A stretch of 37,890 nucleotides of DNA from a virus: IMG/VR virus record IMGVR_UViG_3300023104_000014, positions 1-37,890 of that record; one strand, written 5' to 3'. A model generated the notes under the pieces. That model searched no databases and was not told the origin of the DNA. It saw nothing but the letters and a program-made list of their open reading frames with translations. The stretch's first letter is position 1. Each line of letters opens with the position of its first letter. The translations under genes were made by a program, and so were the position numbers. Below, in pieces: positions 3,841 to 27,474 of this stretch.

Positions 3841-5159
3841 GCCATATTCGCCCCAGCACCCGCCAACCGAACTCGCTCCGGCCCTATGGCAGATATCTCA
3901 ACGGTGCGATAAGGCTGCTCAGGCCGTCCCAAGCGATACAGCGATACAACGTCAAACGGCGCTCGTGCCGTCAACTCTTCGTATTGATCCGGGTAACCGT
4001 CCTGCCCATCCATCCAGCGGATGCGGATCGTTGCTTGGTCTGAACAGCCGACACCAACGGAGATATTGTCGTTACGAGTAGGCTTGCCAAACAGCGCAAC
4101 GGTCCCGGTGATGACTCGCTCTATCAAGAGCCCGTCGTCATCGCCGCGGTTGGGATCTACCTTGAACACGCGCCCATCAATAGATGATCCGCATACCGTC
4201 ACGCCGTTACGCTCATACCCAACGCGGGCGACCCATTCGGTACGTCCGAACGTGGCAAACTCGGACCATGCCTGCGTTGATGCGTCCATTGCGAATGTGC
4301 CTTGTCCCGGTATCGTTAGGACGTAAAACTTGTGGCCGTCTTGACCAAACACCCAGGCGGATAGATCACCTCCCCTCCGGCGTATGCGTTCAGCGATACC
4401 GTTATCACTGACGACTTGCGGTACCGCACCACCGCGGCAAACCTCGCCATCATCTGACACCCACATGACCGAGTTGTCAAATCGCTTTACCGTGTCCCTT
4501 GCGAGGCAACCTCGTTCATAGATACGTCCGGTAACGCGCTGGAACGGTGCATCCACATCACCCGTCGATTGCCACGGCTCGATACTGTCTTCCGAGAAGA
4601 TCCAGAACTCGTCCCCGACACGGCAGATGGCAATGGCTTTATCTGGCGAGCTTTCGGCAGTGGCGAAGTTCAGCGGATCAACCGTAGTAGCGCCCGGTTC
4701 CATCCAGTAGAACTTGCCCGAGCGTGTCAGGATCAACACGTACTGATTAAGCTGCTCTACGTCGATCACTTCGCCTGCGTCGTCGGGCATGACTAGCGGC
4801 GTTAGCGTCGTGCCGTACAAATACAGCGTGGAACCGCCAAGAATGACGTATGCAAACGTCGTGCCGACCATGCTGACTAGGCCAGTGCCGGCGATCGTGC
4901 CTTTACTGGTTCCGCCCGAGAACAACACACCACCCGACACCGCCAGCGCCTCATCCGTTGCCACACGGTAATCCATGCCGCGGATTGGGCCGGTTCCCAA
5001 CGTTACATTGGGGGCCAAGCCGGGGCGCTGAATCCTCAGCGTATCATCTGGTGAAATACCCGACTCGTCCTTTTCCACGTAGAAATTACGCAGCTTGACT
5101 TCCGGCACGAAGCCGTCTGCACGCTGGTAACTCTTCAATCCTAAAGGTACTATCGGCAT
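3831..5159 (-). CDS. gp10-like tail-hub / packaged-DNA stabilisation protein
   Basis: 442 residues, close to P22 gp10 (about 470). It opens with a motif typical of the family (LGLKSYQRADG) and continues as repeated beta strands with aromatic ends (FYWMEPG, EFWIFSEDSIEPW, AWVFGQDGHKFYVLTI, AWSEFATFGRTEWVA), consistent with the beta-propeller of the gp10 hub. In P22, gp10 hexamers sit under gp4, close the portal channel after packaging and hold the tailspikes and needle. The presence of a gp4-like gene upstream and a P22-like portal supports this. The ATG at 5159 has only a weak upstream purine stretch. Confidence 0.75.
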   Translation of the reverse strand: MPIVPLGLKSYQRADGFVPEVKLRNFYVEKDESGISPDDTLRIQRPGLAPNVTLGTGPIRGMDYRVATDEALAVSGGVLFSGGTSKGTIAGTGLVSMVGTTFAYVILGGSTLYLYGTTLTPLVMPDDAGEVIDVEQLNQYVLILTRSGKFYWMEPGATTVDPLNFATAESSPDKAIAICRVGDEFWIFSEDSIEPWQSTGDVDAPFQRVTGRIYERGCLARDTVKRFDNSVMWVSDDGEVCRGGAVPQVVSDNGIAERIRRRGGDLSAWVFGQDGHKFYVLTIPGQGTFAMDASTQAWSEFATFGRTEWVARVGYERNGVTVCGSSIDGRVFKVDPNRGDDDGLLIERVITGTVALFGKPTRNDNISVGVGCSDQATIRIRWMDGQDGYPDQYEELTARAPFDVVSLYRLGRPEQPYRTVEISAIGPERVRLAGAGANMAWR

Positions 5160-16208: not shown

Positions 16209-16702
16209 CCTTCTCCAATTTGCGATGTGTTGCGGGCGGGGGTGGTGGAGAGGATATCCTTCAAATTAGGTCTAAATATCACATAACATAAAGGCTGAGG
16301 AAGTCCGTGTGTCACGTCTCCAAACTTAGGACGACCCCGCACAAACCTAACTTCACCTTTGCCTAAAGCCAAGTCGTGAAACCAATTTGTATTGGTCCTC
16401 GCTGGTATTAGCATTACTACGGTTGCTCCACTACATGATTCTTTGTATGCTTTTCTTACCCATTCCTGTAAAGATTTATTCTTTCCTCCATAAGGAGGGT
16501 TTAGCCAAACCGTATTATTCCCCCATGACTTAGAAAAGGCGTTATCTTTTTCTGTAAAATACGAATCTAAAACTTTAGTATTTTCGTCTGAAGCCGCTGC
16601 ATCTAATGTAAAGGAGAATTCTTGATCAACTTTCGCAAATAAAGATTGAGGAGTGGCCCAATCTTGCCGCGAGCTGGAAAATCTTCTTGAGAAATCGGCC
16701 AT
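16205..16702 (-). CDS. Phage DNA N6-adenine methyltransferase (Dam-like)
   Basis: 165 residues, the usual length for the phage N6-adenine methyltransferase family. Seen motifs: DWATPQSLFAKVDQEF near the N-terminus, FTLDAAASDENTKV (S-adenosylmethionine region), WLNPPYG (the catalytic NPPY) and VVMLIPARTNTNWFHD, followed by GRPKFG. It would methylate adenine in a short target to protect phage DNA from host restriction. Its ribosome-binding site is GGGAGGT. The gene is much richer in A+T than its neighbours, with many TTA and AAA codons, a sign of recent acquisition. Confidence 0.88.
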   Translation of the reverse strand: MADFSRRFSSSRQDWATPQSLFAKVDQEFSFTLDAAASDENTKVLDSYFTEKDNAFSKSWGNNTVWLNPPYGGKNKSLQEWVRKAYKESCSGATVVMLIPARTNTNWFHDLALGKGEVRFVRGRPKFGDVTHGLPQPLCYVIFRPNLKDILSTTPARNTSQIGEG

Positions 16703-19003: not shown

Positions 19004-19557
19004 CCCGCCGCAAACGGTACATCGCTCAACTCGTCATTGAGCTTGCTGCGAACCGCCTTGGGTGGCCGTACGCTCTCAACCACAGCACCTGGAAACGATT
19101 CCTTTGCCGCGGCGATCAAGGGATGATTGCGGATGACGCTGGCGATCTCGTCTAGTGACCAGATCTGTCCCTGACGCCCACCAAGATCCACACGGCCCGC
19201 ATCGGCAATATCCCTAACGAGGATAATCAATTCCTCATCAACGCCGACGATAAACTCCCAATGCTCAGGCTGTCCGGGTTCGCCGTGTGTCGCCGTCGCC
19301 AGTTCGTCCAGCTTGGCATAGGCTCGCAGCATCGCGTCACCGTGCTTGCGAACGTCTTCAAGATTGAGGTCGAGGGTGGCCGCAGAAAACTTGCGCCGCT
19401 GCACCCTAAACTTCTCCCCCAACTCAGGTGGGACGATCGTGGTTAGCCTGCCGATCCCCCAGCGCTGGTCCATCTCCCGCCCCCGCCGATCCACCGCCCG
19501 TACGATGACATCCATCTGCTCAAGTTCCTGATGAGCCGTCATTGGTGCGCCGATCAT
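19000..19557 (-). CDS. Hypothetical protein downstream of HNH gene
   Basis: 185 residues from ATG at 19557, with AGGGAG 7 bases upstream and a 4-base overlap with the HNH gene stop. The middle is helical with charged residues (EDVRKHGDAMLRAYAKLDEL), followed by a hydrophobic strand pair (HWEFIVGVDEELIILVRDI) and an acidic end with KLNDELSDVPFAAG. No known domain is recognised. The stop codon lies inside the GGGTGGGGTTAG motif. Confidence 0.65.
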   Translation of the reverse strand: MIGAPMTAHQELEQMDVIVRAVDRRGREMDQRWGIGRLTTIVPPELGEKFRVQRRKFSAATLDLNLEDVRKHGDAMLRAYAKLDELATATHGEPGQPEHWEFIVGVDEELIILVRDIADAGRVDLGGRQGQIWSLDEIASVIRNHPLIAAAKESFPGAVVESVRPPKAVRSKLNDELSDVPFAAG

Positions 19558-20132
19558 TTGGAAGCTCCCTTTCCGTAATTGCACGGCGAACACAGCGCCT
19601 GAAGATTGTTGAATACCGTGCGCCCGCCGTTGGCTATCGCGGTTACATGATCGATGTGCAGATGGGCTCCGGTTTCAGGGCTGGCACCGCAGGCTCGGCA
19701 CTGGAAGTTGTCGCGCTTCAAAACCTCGTATCGCAGTTTGGGCGTCAACAGCGCCCTCTCTTCGGTATTGCTGGTTGTCCTAACGGTTAGCTCGGCACCG
19801 ACGCGCTCGAATGCCCCGTAGGGTTTCCAGCCATTGATATGAGCGATCAAGCCGATGAACAGTGACACTCGCTTGGGTGTCATGTGTTCCCACCGCTTTT
19901 TCGAGACGTGATGGATTTTCCACATCACATCCTCAGGCGTGGAAAGATCAGCTAGCGGAATCGAATATTCGTAGCCTCCCCAATATATATCGACGTAGCC
20001 GAGTTCGGCGTCGTGCTTCGCCATTGAAGGGTGTTGTGGATTGCGTGGAGGTAGCTTGTAAAGCTCCAAGCCGGCTTCGTACCGTCGGCTAAGTTCGGCT
20101 AGATCAATGATCTCAATTCCTGTGTCGCCCAT
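19554..20132 (-). CDS. HNH endonuclease
   Basis: 192 residues. The C-terminal 60 residues carry the classic HNH module: YEVLKRDNFQCRACGAS (two Cys), HIDHVTAIANGG (the catalytic His pair) and NNLQALCSPCN (Asn and second Cys pair). The N-terminal 130 residues are not recognised and may give DNA specificity. AAGGAG lies 7 bases before the ATG. Such enzymes cut DNA; in phages they act as homing enzymes or help packaging. It is the first gene after the inverted-repeat block. Confidence 0.85.
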   Translation of the reverse strand: MGDTGIEIIDLAELSRRYEAGLELYKLPPRNPQHPSMAKHDAELGYVDIYWGGYEYSIPLADLSTPEDVMWKIHHVSKKRWEHMTPKRVSLFIGLIAHINGWKPYGAFERVGAELTVRTTSNTEERALLTPKLRYEVLKRDNFQCRACGASPETGAHLHIDHVTAIANGGRTVFNNLQALCSPCNYGKGASK

Positions 20133-20177
20133 CTATTTTCTCCTTGCTGTTTCTCGTCACTCTCTAGGGAGCGCAAA

Positions 20178-20360
20178 CCAATAGCGCCTCTTATAGAGGT
20201 GCGTTGTTGCGTTCGCGCGCACCCCGCAGAAATCCTAGGGTTTTTGACGAGGGTGCGCACGTTTTTGGGCTATACCTTGCGCACCCTCCCGAAAAATGGT
20301 CAAAAATGGCAGTTTTCTGCGGGGTGCGCACTTGCGTACCGGAGCCTGCGTACTTGCGCA
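20178..20360. repeat. Nested inverted repeats, candidate replication origin
   Basis: The 231-base gene-free gap (20133-20363) holds a perfect 16-base inverted repeat (20217-20232 with 20314-20329) that encloses a perfect 11-base one (20249-20259 with 20278-20288). The shared core is GGTGCGCA, and further single copies occur at 20353-20362 and, degenerate, at 20198-20203. A direct repeat AAAAATGG lies twice at 20293-20309. A smaller imperfect hairpin is at 20185-20204. Repeated dyads directly downstream of the primase-helicase gene fit a replication origin or a regulator-binding cluster. Confidence 0.5.
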
Positions 20361-20363
20361 CCG

Positions 20364-22490
20364 TCACCGACTTTCCCACGCTTTCGCGTACTCTTTCTTG
20401 ATCCAATGCGACCCGTTGCCACGCCGTTCATTGGTATAAGAGATCTTCCACGCGCCCAGAATGTGAGGCCGCGAGAGGCTGTCAGTGATGAGTCTTTCGA
20501 CCGTCCGCTTGGAATCCAAGCCCATCTGACGCGCCGTGTCTTCAACAAGGTTTGCGGCAGCACTGAGCGTGATTTCCTCGCCCGGGCTCATACCTTCAGC
20601 CATCGTCTTGACGACGGCCTTCCACGTCTCTCGACGCTTCTCAGACGCCGCTTCCTTGGCATTGGACATATCAGCCCATTCAAGGACACCCATGCTATCA
20701 GCGGGCCTAAAACCCCGGGCGTTGTTGAGTGAGACAGACTGCTTCTTCCACCAGATACCCTCACCGGTTTTCAGCTTCAGGTTGGCTTTACCGTCATCGA
20801 AGCGCACATAAAGATGGCGCTCATCCTCTGGTATGTTGAGCTCCTTTGAATCGTCCTTGGACATGTTGAACAAGGTGGCTGTGAAGCGAGCGACACCGCC
20901 TAGCGCGCTGGCGCCTCGTCCTGCGTCAGCATCCCCGGCAGCAGATACATTGACGCCGTTCGGCGTCTTGCGGGTGTGATGGACCAGCCAGACGGCGCAC
21001 CCGGTCTTCTGCGCGATCTCGCGATACATGCGGGCGACCTGACTGATTTGCCCATTGTCGTTCTCGCTGACACCGTGTGTTTCAATGAACGGATCGATGA
21101 TTAGTAGACCGATATTGTACCGCTTGATATGCGCGATCATCTTATCGACAACCGGCATCCGCATCACGTTTCGGTTCTCGTCCAGCTTCGCCACCAGCAA
21201 GTGACGCTCTTCGCCGGTGTCGACGAACAGGTTGGGCGCTAGCCGCTCTGGCGGGATATCATTGGCTAGTAGGAACGCGGAAATACGACGGTTGAGCTCG
21301 TCTCGCGGATCCTCGTTATTGAACAGCCACACCTTGGCCTGCTCATGGGCCTTGAACGGCCCCAGATCCATCTTGAGCGCCAGCGAGATGGCCACCTCGA
21401 TCGTCAGAATGGATTTACCAACGCCTGGCGGTGCGACCAACACAGATACGAACGACCGTGCGAGGATGTCACCGAACAGCCATTCCCGCGGCGGGATGGT
21501 TGAAGGATCAATGGCAACCCATTGCGTGGGCACGAAGTCCGCGGGGTCGGGCTCCACGTCTTCGGGGAGCTCGCCGTGTACGAGGTAATCGCGCACCGCA
21601 TCTTCGCCGTGTAGGGCAGCCATATCGTTGAAGTCCGAAAGGCCCTCGTGACCTGAAAGCGGCGCGACCATCGAAAGCCCACCCAGGATTGCGGCGGACT
21701 GGTCTGCGCACTCACGCCCGACGTTAGGCAATGGCGGGTCATACGATGGCAGTTCCCAATCGTCGTCGCCGGCAACCACCCACGCCAGATTGCTGTGATG
21801 CTCGTTAAGCCACTTTGCGACCTCGACCATGTTCTTGCCATTGAAGGCGCACACAACAGGCGATGACGTAGCTTTCTGGATAGTGGCACCAGTTGAGAAG
21901 CCCTCGCACAGATATGCGGTGGTCCCCGGGGCCGCGCGGCTTAACCCGGGCCCAAGTGGCAGGAAGGAGCCTTGGACTGGGGCTCCAGCATGAAAGCGCT
22001 TCGACCCCTCAGGGTTGATGCTCTGGACGGTTTGAATAGCTTTGTCGGGCCCGAATGCCGGAATGAGAAGGTTGCCACCCTCCAGGCGCAAAACGGGCGC
22101 TGTGACGTTCTTCGTTTCCAGATAGGGATGCGAATGACCGTTAAGCTTCTCTGCTGAGTTCCAACGAATTTGCGCGGTCAAGGTGCCTGCGCGCTGTTGC
22201 TCGCGGCGCTCCCTGTCGCGCTTCTCCATGAGCTCGCGCAAATCTATCCGCGCTGGCCGACCAATGACACGCTGCGACTTCCAATGGTGCTTTTGCCCAC
22301 CAAGCCGCCAGTCCGATACGACACCCTGAGGGTATTCGTCATCATACAGAATATACCACCCGGGCTTACGCCCGCGCTTGCCATTCTCGATTGGGGAAAA
22401 GCGATGGATCTTACCATCAGCGATGATCTGCTTCGGAGTAAGGCCCAGTGCTGAGCAAAATTCCGAAAACTCCGTGACCGTATCCGTCAC
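20364..22490 (-). CDS. Fused DNA primase-helicase (TOPRIM plus RecA-like ATPase)
   Basis: About 708 residues from GTG at 22490, so the protein begins TDTVTEFSEFCSALG; the frame is open to ATG at 22616, but that leader is of unlikely composition and neither start has a clear ribosome-binding site. A TOPRIM-like core is seen (YLCEG about 193-197, VVAGDDDW about 238-245), then a RecA/RepA-like helicase: Walker A APPGVGKS (353-360), Walker B GLLIIDPF (461-468) and VWLVHHTRKT (500-509). The last 130 residues may be a winged-helix region. The enzyme would lay primers and unwind the fork in phage replication. Next to SSB, exonuclease and origin-like repeats. Confidence 0.88.
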   Translation of the reverse strand: MTDTVTEFSEFCSALGLTPKQIIADGKIHRFSPIENGKRGRKPGWYILYDDEYPQGVVSDWRLGGQKHHWKSQRVIGRPARIDLRELMEKRDRERREQQRAGTLTAQIRWNSAEKLNGHSHPYLETKNVTAPVLRLEGGNLLIPAFGPDKAIQTVQSINPEGSKRFHAGAPVQGSFLPLGPGLSRAAPGTTAYLCEGFSTGATIQKATSSPVVCAFNGKNMVEVAKWLNEHHSNLAWVVAGDDDWELPSYDPPLPNVGRECADQSAAILGGLSMVAPLSGHEGLSDFNDMAALHGEDAVRDYLVHGELPEDVEPDPADFVPTQWVAIDPSTIPPREWLFGDILARSFVSVLVAPPGVGKSILTIEVAISLALKMDLGPFKAHEQAKVWLFNNEDPRDELNRRISAFLLANDIPPERLAPNLFVDTGEERHLLVAKLDENRNVMRMPVVDKMIAHIKRYNIGLLIIDPFIETHGVSENDNGQISQVARMYREIAQKTGCAVWLVHHTRKTPNGVNVSAAGDADAGRGASALGGVARFTATLFNMSKDDSKELNIPEDERHLYVRFDDGKANLKLKTGEGIWWKKQSVSLNNARGFRPADSMGVLEWADMSNAKEAASEKRRETWKAVVKTMAEGMSPGEEITLSAAANLVEDTARQMGLDSKRTVERLITDSLSRPHILGAWKISYTNERRGNGSHWIKKEYAKAWESR

Positions 22491-22628
22491 GACTTGAACC
22501 AAGCACAAGATATGGTAGTTATAAACACGTCGGTTGGCCTCCAAAGCTAGCCACGAAAGTTGTAAGCATGGGCGACCGCCTAGAAGCCCTGCGAACAAGC
22601 CGACAATAGACCACATATCGCCGGAATT

Positions 22629-22658: not shown

Positions 22659-23282
22659 TCAAAATTCCACATCATCCGACTTAGCGGCAGGCGGTCCGAC
22701 GTGGGCAGCGGGCCCGCTCGGTGCGGGCGCCGGAGATGGTGCAGGAGCCGGGGAAGCCGCGGGCTTGTCATCACCTGCGAGCTCGGCGGGACGATCTGCC
22801 CAAGCCACGATTTCCCACTTCGGCTTGTAGTTCGTGCCGTGCTTGTTGGTAACGGGCGACACGCCGCTGCACTTGACGACTGGCAGCTTGCCGGTAGCCG
22901 TTTCGGGTGCGGCTTGCCACATGTCGTAGAGCTCGTTGAGGCTGTCGATGACGATGCCGGCAGTGGAAGCAAACTCGCGAACGCCGCCCAGGTTTTTCTC
23001 GCTGAAGATGTCGATCTCGAAACCACGCTTGAACCCGTCCCCGGGCTTTGGTGCCGCTTGCGACAGCGAAGGATCGAACGTCTTGGCTGGTGCCACGCCA
23101 GCCGCGAAGAGAAACCAGCCGGTGCGAATGTTCGGCATGTCGAAGATAGCCGTGAAGTTGGTCACTTCGTACTGCTCGGCGTTCTGCTCGTCGGGTTTGG
23201 TATAGAACCTCCCGGCCTTGGCGTTGAAGGAGGCAAAGATCTTGAAGCTGCCGCCTTCAGTGCCCGAATTCATGAAGCCCAT
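22659..23282 (-). CDS. SSB-like single-stranded DNA-binding protein
   Basis: 207 residues. The first two thirds are a beta-rich body (FKIFASFNAK, YEVTNFTAIFDM, GWFLFAAG, GTNYKPKWEIVAWADRP). The last 40 residues form a Pro/Ala-rich flexible linker and end in the acidic DDVEF, the kind of tip that in bacterial SSBs (DDDIPF-type) recruits replication partners. The gene is beside the exonuclease and the primase-helicase. Protection of single-stranded DNA is the likely role. The OB-fold core is not proven by motif. AGGAAAT lies before the ATG. Confidence 0.6.
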   Translation of the reverse strand: MGFMNSGTEGGSFKIFASFNAKAGRFYTKPDEQNAEQYEVTNFTAIFDMPNIRTGWFLFAAGVAPAKTFDPSLSQAAPKPGDGFKRGFEIDIFSEKNLGGVREFASTAGIVIDSLNELYDMWQAAPETATGKLPVVKCSGVSPVTNKHGTNYKPKWEIVAWADRPAELAGDDKPAASPAPAPSPAPAPSGPAAHVGPPAAKSDDVEF

Positions 23283-24752: not shown

Positions 24753-25010
24753 CTATAGCATAGCGTACTGCATACCCAACGCGCTTAAATAAGTCTCCAG
24801 CACGGTCATTTCCTCTTGGACCTTACCCTGCTCCTTCTTCCGAATAGCAATGATGGTCTTCATAGCTTTCGTATCAAAGCCTCTCGCCTTTGCCTCTTTA
24901 AAGACATCACTGATATCCTCGGCAATCCCAGACTTCTCGTCGGCAAGTCTTTCAGCTCGCTCAATCAAAAGGCGAAGCTCATCGGCGGCTACATTGGCTA
25001 CGTTGCTCAT
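24753..25010 (-). CDS. GapR-like DNA-binding protein (DUF2312)
   Basis: 85 residues. The sequence matches the GapR/DUF2312 pattern: LRLLIERAERLADEKSGIAEDI, then DVFKEAKARGFDTKAM and IIAIRKKEQ. In Caulobacter and relatives GapR is a nucleoid protein that clamps overtwisted DNA ahead of replication forks and helps topoisomerases. A phage copy might act on phage DNA during replication or disturb the host one. The ribosome-binding site is AGAGGA. It sits between the exonuclease and RusA genes. Confidence 0.88.
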   Translation of the reverse strand: MSNVANVAADELRLLIERAERLADEKSGIAEDISDVFKEAKARGFDTKAMKTIIAIRKKEQGKVQEEMTVLETYLSALGMQYAML

Positions 25011-25688: not shown

Positions 25689-26018
25689 TTATGAGGCGGG
25701 ATCTTTGATTTCCCGAATCTCGTAGGAAAAGCCCTCAAGGTCATATTTCGTTCTGGCGGCTATCATGCCAGAGGACCAGCCGCGGTCTGCGTAGAACACG
25801 GCGTAATCCGCTACCCGTCGCCACTCTAACCCAGCGGCAATGCCCAGCGCCCGCTCCTCTGGTATGGTGTCATCCAGAATACCCGGCTGCGTATACAGCA
25901 GGTGGCTGGCAATCGGCGCCTCGCCACACTTTAGGCTATCTGCCATACAGGTGCGCGCGTAGGCCACGTTCGCTTCTACATCCCCTGCGTAGGGGCTTTC
26001 TAGGATAACTAGCTTCAT
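25689..26018 (-). CDS. DUF7768 family protein, nucleoside deoxyribosyltransferase-like fold
   Basis: 109 residues. It opens with LVILESPYAGDVEANVAYAR and continues with GEAPIASHLLYTQPGILDDTIPEERALG and FYADRGWSSGM, the conserved blocks of the DUF7768 family. The family is predicted to share the nucleoside 2-deoxyribosyltransferase fold, and its reaction is not established. It overlaps the methyltransferase gene by 4 bases, so the two are translated together. A gap of 80 bases follows to the RusA gene, with nothing clear in it. Confidence 0.8.
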   Translation of the reverse strand: MKLVILESPYAGDVEANVAYARTCMADSLKCGEAPIASHLLYTQPGILDDTIPEERALGIAAGLEWRRVADYAVFYADRGWSSGMIAARTKYDLEGFSYEIREIKDPAS

Positions 26019-26725
26019 GCGAACAGACTCCCTTGGCGTTGGGCGTCTTCGATGCGCTTGCAGGCTATGTCGAAATATTTAGGCTCGCGTTCAATGCCGA
26101 TGAATGCCCGACCCTCAAGGGCACATGCAACGCCAGTTGTGCCTGAGCCCATATATGGATCCATGATAACCTTGGCGTCTTCAGGCAGGTCAGATATGCA
26201 CCATCGCATCAACTCGACGGGCTTCTGCGTGGGGTGGCAGAATGTGCGATTTTCTTCACACCCCTCGCGCTTTCCTCCGTCCCACACCTGTTTGAAGAAA
26301 CGACTTTTACCAAAGTCGCTCCACGCAAGCTCGGTAGTGCTATGGGTTTGACGTTTAGTTATGCCATCCAGCGGACGCTTTACCCATGTCGCCCACCCCT
26401 GTTGAGGCGGCAAAGTGTCTGCAAAATACTGGCCTCCCCAAAACATATGATAGCGGCCAACAGCGAGCCAAGGACGAACGTTGGCTCGTTCCGCGTCCCA
26501 GTCCTGCGGTGTCGGGTGATTAACGCGCGCGCGAATATTGATGCCGTATGGCGGGTCGGTAATGACGGCATCAACGCCCACACGGCAATTGCCACCGCAG
26601 CAGTCACCGCGATCATAAACCTCGGGAAACGGACAGGGAGTGTCACGCCAAACACCGTGATGCAGCCAACGCTCGCAATCGCCTAAAATCAGAGTGGCGT
26701 TGCCGATTATCTCAATGCGGCTCAT
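26015..26725 (-). CDS. DNA methyltransferase (DPPY type)
   Basis: 236 residues. Motif IV DPPY is at 57-60 and motif I DPYMGSGTTG at 189-198, with the order DPPY before the S-adenosylmethionine site (beta-class). The segment between them (MFWGGQYFADTL, LAWSDF, CHPTQKPVELM) is the usual phage N6-adenine/N4-cytosine enzyme, DPPY pointing to adenine. Before DPPY lies an unusual Cys-rich insertion (Cys31, 42, 43, 47) that may bind metal. It probably protects phage DNA from restriction. It overlaps both neighbours by 4 bases. Confidence 0.88.
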   Translation of the reverse strand: MSRIEIIGNATLILGDCERWLHHGVWRDTPCPFPEVYDRGDCCGGNCRVGVDAVITDPPYGINIRARVNHPTPQDWDAERANVRPWLAVGRYHMFWGGQYFADTLPPQQGWATWVKRPLDGITKRQTHSTTELAWSDFGKSRFFKQVWDGGKREGCEENRTFCHPTQKPVELMRWCISDLPEDAKVIMDPYMGSGTTGVACALEGRAFIGIEREPKYFDIACKRIEDAQRQGSLFA

Positions 26726-27474
26726 GCAGCCCTCCCGTACAACCGAAAGTTACGCTCCCGAATCTCACCAGCCTTTGCGACTAGTTCCCGATCCGTCAGC
26801 CCAACAGTACGCCCGCAGATCCACAGCGCTCCATGCTGCTTGGCAACCCCCGCGGCGTCACACCGAACCACCGGACGATACCCCAGCGATTGCAGATAAC
26901 GCTGAGCCTCCCCCGCCGCTGAGTCCTCCTTATACCCGCGATCGACAGGCGCGGTCATGTAGCCGGGTTTGGGGATCTTGGGGGCTACGGAGGCGGGTTG
27001 GCGGGTGAAGTCTACGGCGCGGACGTTGGCACCCTTCTGGACCCGCTTGAGCCCCTTAGACACAACCCAACGGCGGACGGTCTTCGTGCTAACCCCGTAG
27101 TGCTTACACAGCCACGATACAGGGTTGTCCGACCACCTTTGCACAAAGTCATCGGGAACGGGCTTGGCGGGCACTCTACGCGACTGTGGTGTGCCCTTGG
27201 ACAGCCTATAGCGATCGACAGCGTTGCAGACACGCTTGCGGCCCACGTTCATCTGCTTGGCGATGGCGTCGTAGGAATAGCCGTCCTCGACCAGTTCCTT
27301 TAGCGTGTTGAGCATTTCGTCCGTCCAGGCGCGCTGGTGGACCGACACGCCCGACATACGCCGCCAGCGCATGATGGTATGGCGACCAACCGAGTAGCGT
27401 GCCATCTGCTCCGGCACCGTCTTGTGTAGGTGTTCGCGGAAGTCGGCGGGGAGGGGGTTTTTAAGGGGGGTCAT
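26722..27474 (-). CDS. Multi-helix-turn-helix DNA-binding protein
   Basis: 250 residues. At least three HTH-like blocks appear: MARYSVGRHTIMRWRR (about 24-40), DEMLNTLKELVEDGYSYDAIAKQMNVGRKRVCNAVDRYRL-type (50-92; recognition part VGRKRVCNAVDRY), and NPVSWLCKHYGVSTKTVRRWV (about 115-137). The C-terminal part is basic and ends with GLTDRELVAKAGEIRERNF. The middle unit has GcrA/SANT-like spacing. It could be a transcription regulator of the phage programme. No exact family is recognised. Confidence 0.65.
   Translation of the reverse strand: MTPLKNPLPADFREHLHKTVPEQMARYSVGRHTIMRWRRMSGVSVHQRAWTDEMLNTLKELVEDGYSYDAIAKQMNVGRKRVCNAVDRYRLSKGTPQSRRVPAKPVPDDFVQRWSDNPVSWLCKHYGVSTKTVRRWVVSKGLKRVQKGANVRAVDFTRQPASVAPKIPKPGYMTAPVDRGYKEDSAAGEAQRYLQSLGYRPVVRCDAAGVAKQHGALWICGRTVGLTDRELVAKAGEIRERNFRLYGRAA

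Follow-up and report, generated by a model that had tools for sequence, protein, structure and literature searches.

An iteron array interwoven with a long hairpin, very probably a replication origin, directly behind the primase-helicase gene of a tailed phage

Introduction

The alpha protein of phage P4 is an SF3 helicase, the P4 iterons begin with GGTG, and the crr site adjoins the alpha gene. In plasmid RSF1010, priming and iteron binding are the tasks of two further proteins, a primase and RepC. A cognate ori site has been named for the P4 alpha protein, and an iteron array 3' of the initiator helicase has been described as a layout unique to phage satellites (PMC6092414). The helicases of SaPI/PICI and SCCmec elements recognise iterons directly downstream through their C-terminal domain (PMC7581432, PMC6092414). 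The pRN1 origin has a stem-loop of ~100 nt 3' of the replication gene, of which the structure is kept and the sequence is not, and an origin of this type was also proposed for phage BIP-1 (PMC4234260).

Here, we analysed a stretch of 37,890 bases (the window), which is a virus sequence (IMG/VR record IMGVR_UViG_3300023104_000014) with TerL, portal and major head protein genes. In the window, PICI-like iterons and a pRN1-like stem-loop are combined, with a different helicase fold. Judged from sequence and its comparison among relatives, positions 20168-20362 are very probably the replication origin of the phage, and the helicase's own C-terminal domain is predicted to be the likely reader of the iterons. 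In the literature on phage iterons with AAA_25/RepA primase-helicases, of which our coverage was incomplete, no earlier description was found. Since the relatives have the same arrangement in the same place with different letters, we regard the locus as a version of an origin type that is already known, in a phage group for which we found no earlier report.

Results

The repeat block and its hairpin

The repeats occupy the 231-bp gap (20133-20363) from the stop codon of the primase-helicase gene to the start of the HNH gene, and the features of this region are as follows.

19554..20132, minus strand: HNH endonuclease gene (Pfam HNH, E 6.5e-10), the start of which bounds the gap
20168..20175, plus strand: outlying iteron-like site GGAGCGCA, one mismatch, weak
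20214..20332, no strand: long nested hairpin with outer 16-nt, middle 8-nt and inner 11-nt arms
20216..20223, minus strand: iteron variant GGTGCGCG, one mismatch, at the outer 16-nt arm 20217-20232
20252..20259, plus strand: iteron GGTGCGCA, within the inner 11-nt arm 20249-20259
20278..20285, minus strand: iteron GGTGCGCA, within the inner 11-nt arm 20278-20288
20290..20319, no strand: 30-nt segment in which the A+T content of the block peaks (63%); it lies between iterons and contains both AAAAATGG copies
20323..20330, plus strand: iteron GGTGCGCA, overlapping the next site (joint span 20323..20332)
20325..20332, minus strand: iteron AGTGCGCA, overlapping the previous site
20333..20340, minus strand: iteron GGTACGCA, from the GGTNCGCA pattern scan
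20347..20354, minus strand: iteron variant AGTACGCA, one mismatch
20355..20362, minus strand: iteron GGTGCGCA, at offset 2 relative to the stop of the helicase gene
20364..22616, minus strand: primase-helicase gene (750 aa) with TOPRIM_3 (residues 234-338), AAA_25 RecA-fold helicase (356-551) and a predicted C-terminal winged helix (about 651-750)

The 8-nt iteron GGTNCGCA, with one mismatch allowed, is present in about nine copies in both orientations, which are interwoven with the hairpin of ~119 nt. A 185-bp segment at the block holds 9 GGTNCGCA sites, compared with at most 4 elsewhere in the record (mean 0.7), and 4 of the 7 copies of GGTGCGCA in the record are in the block (20252, 20278, 20323 and 20355). 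The sequence-only reading of this DNA had described an exact 16-nt inverted repeat with 81 nt spacing enclosing an exact 11-nt one, with further single copies of the core around the dyads and the whole at the end of the primase-helicase gene, and all of this was confirmed (outer arms 20217-20232 and 20314-20329; inner arms 20249-20259 and 20278-20288, 18 nt apart). The core that it took to be shared by both repeats is present as GGTGCGCA in the inner arms, whereas the left 16-nt arm has a one-mismatch copy, CGCGCACC. The extent that it gave to the unit (20178-20360) was too small, as the iterons continue to 20362, where the first of them lies 2 nt past the primase-helicase stop codon (20364-20366).

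Between the outer and inner arms lies a middle pair, TTTTTGAC (20241-20248) and GTCAAAAA (20299-20306), and because the three pairs are collinear, they make up one nested hairpin of ~119 nt. An inverted pair of 16 nt within 200 nt occurred in none of 100 order-2 Markov genomes, in which the longest pair was 14 nt. The DNA fold of the hairpin has a z of -7.3 on the plus strand and -6.7 on the minus strand, none of 200 shuffles being as stable; the block is also the most stable 180-nt segment of the record, and all non-overlapping segments are weaker by more than 10 kcal/mol. A large cruciform or long hairpin had been suggested before; the folding model predicts a hairpin of ~119 nt with a z of about -7.

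Copies of AAAAATGG at 20292 and 20302 fall in the segment 20290-20319, which is a possible melting site and may take part in unwinding. No strong A+T-rich unwinding element was found in the window (maximum 63% A+T), and the A+T excess averaged over the relatives is a few percent only. The GC skew has no turning point at the block, in a record that is possibly incomplete, and no tRNA or tmRNA was found. A protein-coding role for the gap was considered and rejected, since it contains only short overlapping ORFs and is non-coding in register with the closest relative (L113); the earlier view that coding does not explain the block thus holds.

The primase-helicase and neighbouring genes

The Pfam matches of the primase-helicase are TOPRIM_3 (E 3.8e-8) and AAA_25 (E 4.9e-40), and residues 373-618 match PDB 1g8y, the hexameric RepA helicase of RSF1010 (E 5.3e-16). 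The last 200 residues were modelled with AlphaFold from an alignment with 32 relatives. The model has the order a1-b1-a2-a3-b2-b3, and most of its residues 101-190 have a pLDDT of about 90. Winged helices, for example Cdt1-C (Z 8.6, rmsd 3.3, 93 aligned), are among the best matches of this C-terminal part in structure; because Z values of this size are common in small folds, they support a winged helix and do not thereby show its function. A sequence search of the PDB with the C-terminal part gave nothing useful, and the C-terminal domain of P4 alpha was absent among the structural matches, an absence which excludes nothing. No family A or B DNA polymerase (PolA/PolB) was found in the possibly incomplete record, which fits a phage that supplies initiator, helicase and primase and borrows the polymerase of its host.

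Several neighbouring genes, all on the minus strand, deserve mention in their own right. Just upstream of the primase-helicase, 22659-23282 encodes a 207-aa protein without family match, whose C-terminus (...SDDVEF) resembles the C-terminal tip of single-strand DNA-binding proteins. A GapR-like DNA-binding protein is encoded at 24753-25010 (Pfam GapR_DNA-bd, E 1.5e-28), GapR being a nucleoid protein known from Caulobacter; it had been named earlier as a candidate ligand of the block, and its gene is indeed there, but nothing that we found links GapR to the repeats. Two adjacent genes, 26015-26725 and 26722-27474, encode an N6_N4_Mtase DNA methyltransferase and a protein with a helix-turn-helix and weak GcrA matches. 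This CcrM/GcrA-like pair hints at an alphaproteobacterial host and possibly interferes with host cell-cycle control.

The closest relative and the pairing of protein and site

In the closest relative, L113, the helicase is 58% identical (53% over the C-terminal 138 aa). The gap of L113 aligns end to end with that of the window and contains a homologous hairpin (z -5.4). Its iterons read GGTCCGCA and GGTTCGCA, in place of GGTGCGCA and GGTACGCA in the window. One iteron base, N, changes from a purine in the window (G/A) to a pyrimidine in L113 (C/T), and this is largely the same change in both orientations, as would be expected of binding sites that follow their protein. The consensus RNA fold, made from these two sequences only, is partly unlike the single-sequence folds, and we therefore make no claim of pair-by-pair compensation.

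Over 101 loci, iteron similarity had a partial r of 0.12 with the C-terminal domain (reached in 0 of 2000 permutations) and of 0.003 with the helicase core. Because divergence of the C-terminal domain and of the core are strongly correlated (r 0.90), and a sliding partial correlation along the protein revealed no sharp specificity region, the statistical tie of the iteron letters to the C-terminal domain is weak and only suggestive.

Arrays after the helicase gene in relatives

Nucleotide searches of a phage collection with the region gave no matches, and searches of IMG/VR with the primase-helicase or its neighbour as single proteins gave no relatives, so the relatives were reached through a terminase search (40 related loci) and through a helicase alignment, which contributed loci from IMG/VR and mostly alphaproteobacterial genomes. 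We scored an array where a single 8-mer occurs four times or more within 400 nt past the helicase stop. Of 141 loci whose sequence was long enough, 94 had one, compared with 13 of 2705 control windows taken from these loci. After dereplication, arrays followed the helicase in 75 of 114 cases, compared with 5 of 1179 after other ORFs and none of 106 before the helicase. The arrays have up to 12 sites in both orientations; their letters vary among relatives while the position is constant, and within one subfamily the iteron offsets are kept as well (about 0, 22, 32, 68, 105, 114 and 148). About a third of the loci had no array in the strict 8-mer test, and none was found in a separate check of the cultured Rhizobium phage RHph_X2_26. 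The DNA after the helicase also folds much more stably than shuffled sequence in the relatives (median z -3.8 vs -0.2; z below -3 in 64% vs 1%), although these hairpins, taken by themselves, might also stem from transcription terminators. It had been asked whether the dyads are conserved: their letters are not, but an iteron array and hairpin 3' of the helicase recur in circular phage-plasmids as well as in about 100 loci of diverse kinds.

When 8-mer clusters were sought in an unbiased scan, the top cluster fell directly after the helicase gene in L003, L004, L006, L014, L015, L022 and L023, with letters that mostly differ among these seven loci (GTGGAGCA, GTGTGGCA, CCTCCGCA, ATTGGGGA, GACCACAC). 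In L003, where the terminase is 97% identical, a VapE-type helicase stands in place of AAA_25, and six GACCACAC copies are clustered from the 3' end of the VapE helicase onward. Replication cassettes are thus swapped together with their repeats.

Two loci presented other arrangements. In L012, five AGCGGGAC copies (1858-1978) lie inside a 254-aa ORF without Pfam match (1583-2347), similar to the iterons of lambda, which sit inside gene O. In L019, AGCGTCAC repeats (4828-4990) cluster just after a DnaB-type helicase gene.

The helicase is also present on four circular alphaproteobacterial plasmids. One of them, from Rhodoplanes serenus (L256; NZ_LR026982.1, reverse complement), is a circular phage-plasmid with terminase, portal and capsid genes, in which eight GCGTCACC copies (16287-16500) follow the helicase and flank a stretch very rich in A+T; by eye, such flanking is clear in Rhodoplanes only. 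The Microvirga and Methylobacterium plasmids have weaker repeats, with three or four exact 8-mers. No RepC, RPA or Rep_3 match was found on the Rhodoplanes phage-plasmid or on Microvirga terrae pR24_3. The RepC match of Methylobacterium indicum pVL1_6 is weak and sub-threshold, and Microvirga lotononidis has a true RepC, so that the helicase module need not be the sole replicon in these two.

Discussion

The recurrence of array and hairpin 3' of the helicase in relatives supports the earlier proposal that the block is a candidate origin or a set of initiator binding sites. The explanation that survives best beside it, although we consider it unlikely, is control of the HNH gene, either by an operator array to which a repressor or an autoregulating helicase binds, or by an RNA element, a transcript hairpin that terminates or attenuates transcription. 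The gap does separate two genes of the same strand, and as RNA it folds very stably (-87.3 kcal/mol, z -6.2). However, scans for promoters and terminators found no sigma-70-like promoter or U-tract terminator in the block, and the record has no Rfam match. What is constant is the helicase upstream, whereas the gene after the gap varies (HNH here, another ORF in L113), the sites found in relatives are more than an operator needs, and no cluster precedes the helicase gene in the 106 dereplicated cases.

The variation of the repeats also bears on whether the block could be a packaging site (pac/cos) read by the terminase, as phage packaging sites likewise bear repeated binding sites. We regard this as very improbable, because large terminases that are 94-97% identical occur with quite different repeats (GACCACAC in L003, GTGGAGCA in L004 and L006), the repeats travel with the helicase even into otherwise unrelated elements including plasmids, and the block is about 5 kb from terL. 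Intergenic long inverted repeats are often mobile debris, but MITE-like, REP-like or chance palindromic DNA without function has next to no probability here, since the block is single copy in the record, its own inverted match aside, and the relatives that keep place and arrangement with diverged letters already contradict it.

For the origin, we propose the following order of events. The C-terminal winged helix of the primase-helicase would bind the GGTNCGCA iterons immediately 3' of its gene, and several subunits would gather on these iterons, which face opposite ways. The intervening DNA would then open, and both the A+T-rich segment 20290-20319 and extrusion of the hairpin under supercoiling possibly aid this step; the ring-shaped helicase would load, the TOPRIM domain would prime, and a DNA polymerase of the host would extend the primers. 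The host enzyme is proposed because the search for a family A or B DNA polymerase of the phage gave none. We further speculate, as a tentative extension, that a hybrid origin may be common to a large group of tailed phages, prophages and phage-plasmids of Alphaproteobacteria. In it, PICI-type iterons would lie in a pRN1-like extruding hairpin, and their reader would be a winged helix that forms part of the RecA-fold primase-helicase. A single protein would then act as initiator, helicase loader, helicase and primase, and it would load at the extruded hairpin.

The locus is useful in several respects. The 200-400 nt after an AAA_25 primase-helicase offer a handle on the origin of many uncultured phages and circular phage-plasmids. 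As protein and site diverge together in one small cassette, dozens of natural helicase-iteron pairs are available for specificity tests, and the Rhodoplanes serenus phage-plasmid is a good experimental model.

Compared with the known systems, the helicase domain in the window is homologous to RepA of RSF1010, which is a matter of family membership alone and does not imply a hexamer; unlike in RSF1010, the primase and a predicted C-terminal winged helix are fused to it. The single primase-helicase protein is like that of P4, which also recognises repeats, and the initial GGTG of the P4 iterons may be a further resemblance, but the window has an AAA_25 RecA fold and not an SF3 alpha, and P4 is a satellite. 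The stem-loop (119 nt here, ~100 nt in pRN1 and BIP-1) lies 3' of the replication gene and keeps its structure while its sequence changes, as in those systems; the pRN1 protein, however, joins an archaeo-eukaryotic primase to an SF3 helicase where the window has TOPRIM and AAA_25, and the feature recognised there is without an iteron array. The closest likeness in layout is to SaPI/PICI origins. Shared are an array of short iterons right at the 3' end of the initiator helicase gene, iteron letters that are specific to the element, a C-terminal DNA-binding domain that is expected to read them, and, in the Rhodoplanes phage-plasmid, iteron sets flanking an A+T-rich stretch. In the window, the A+T-rich segment between the iterons is weak, and unlike in those origins a long hairpin is interwoven with the array. 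Where they have a D5/DUF927-type Rep and an AEP-type primase, the window has a RecA-fold AAA_25 helicase to which a TOPRIM primase is fused, and its element is not a satellite but a tailed phage, with terminase, portal and capsid genes of its own. The satellite-type origin layout would thereby extend to complete tailed phages whose helicase has an unrelated fold, and because helicase class and nature of the element do not match, we describe the locus as one that would work like a PICI origin without classing it as one.
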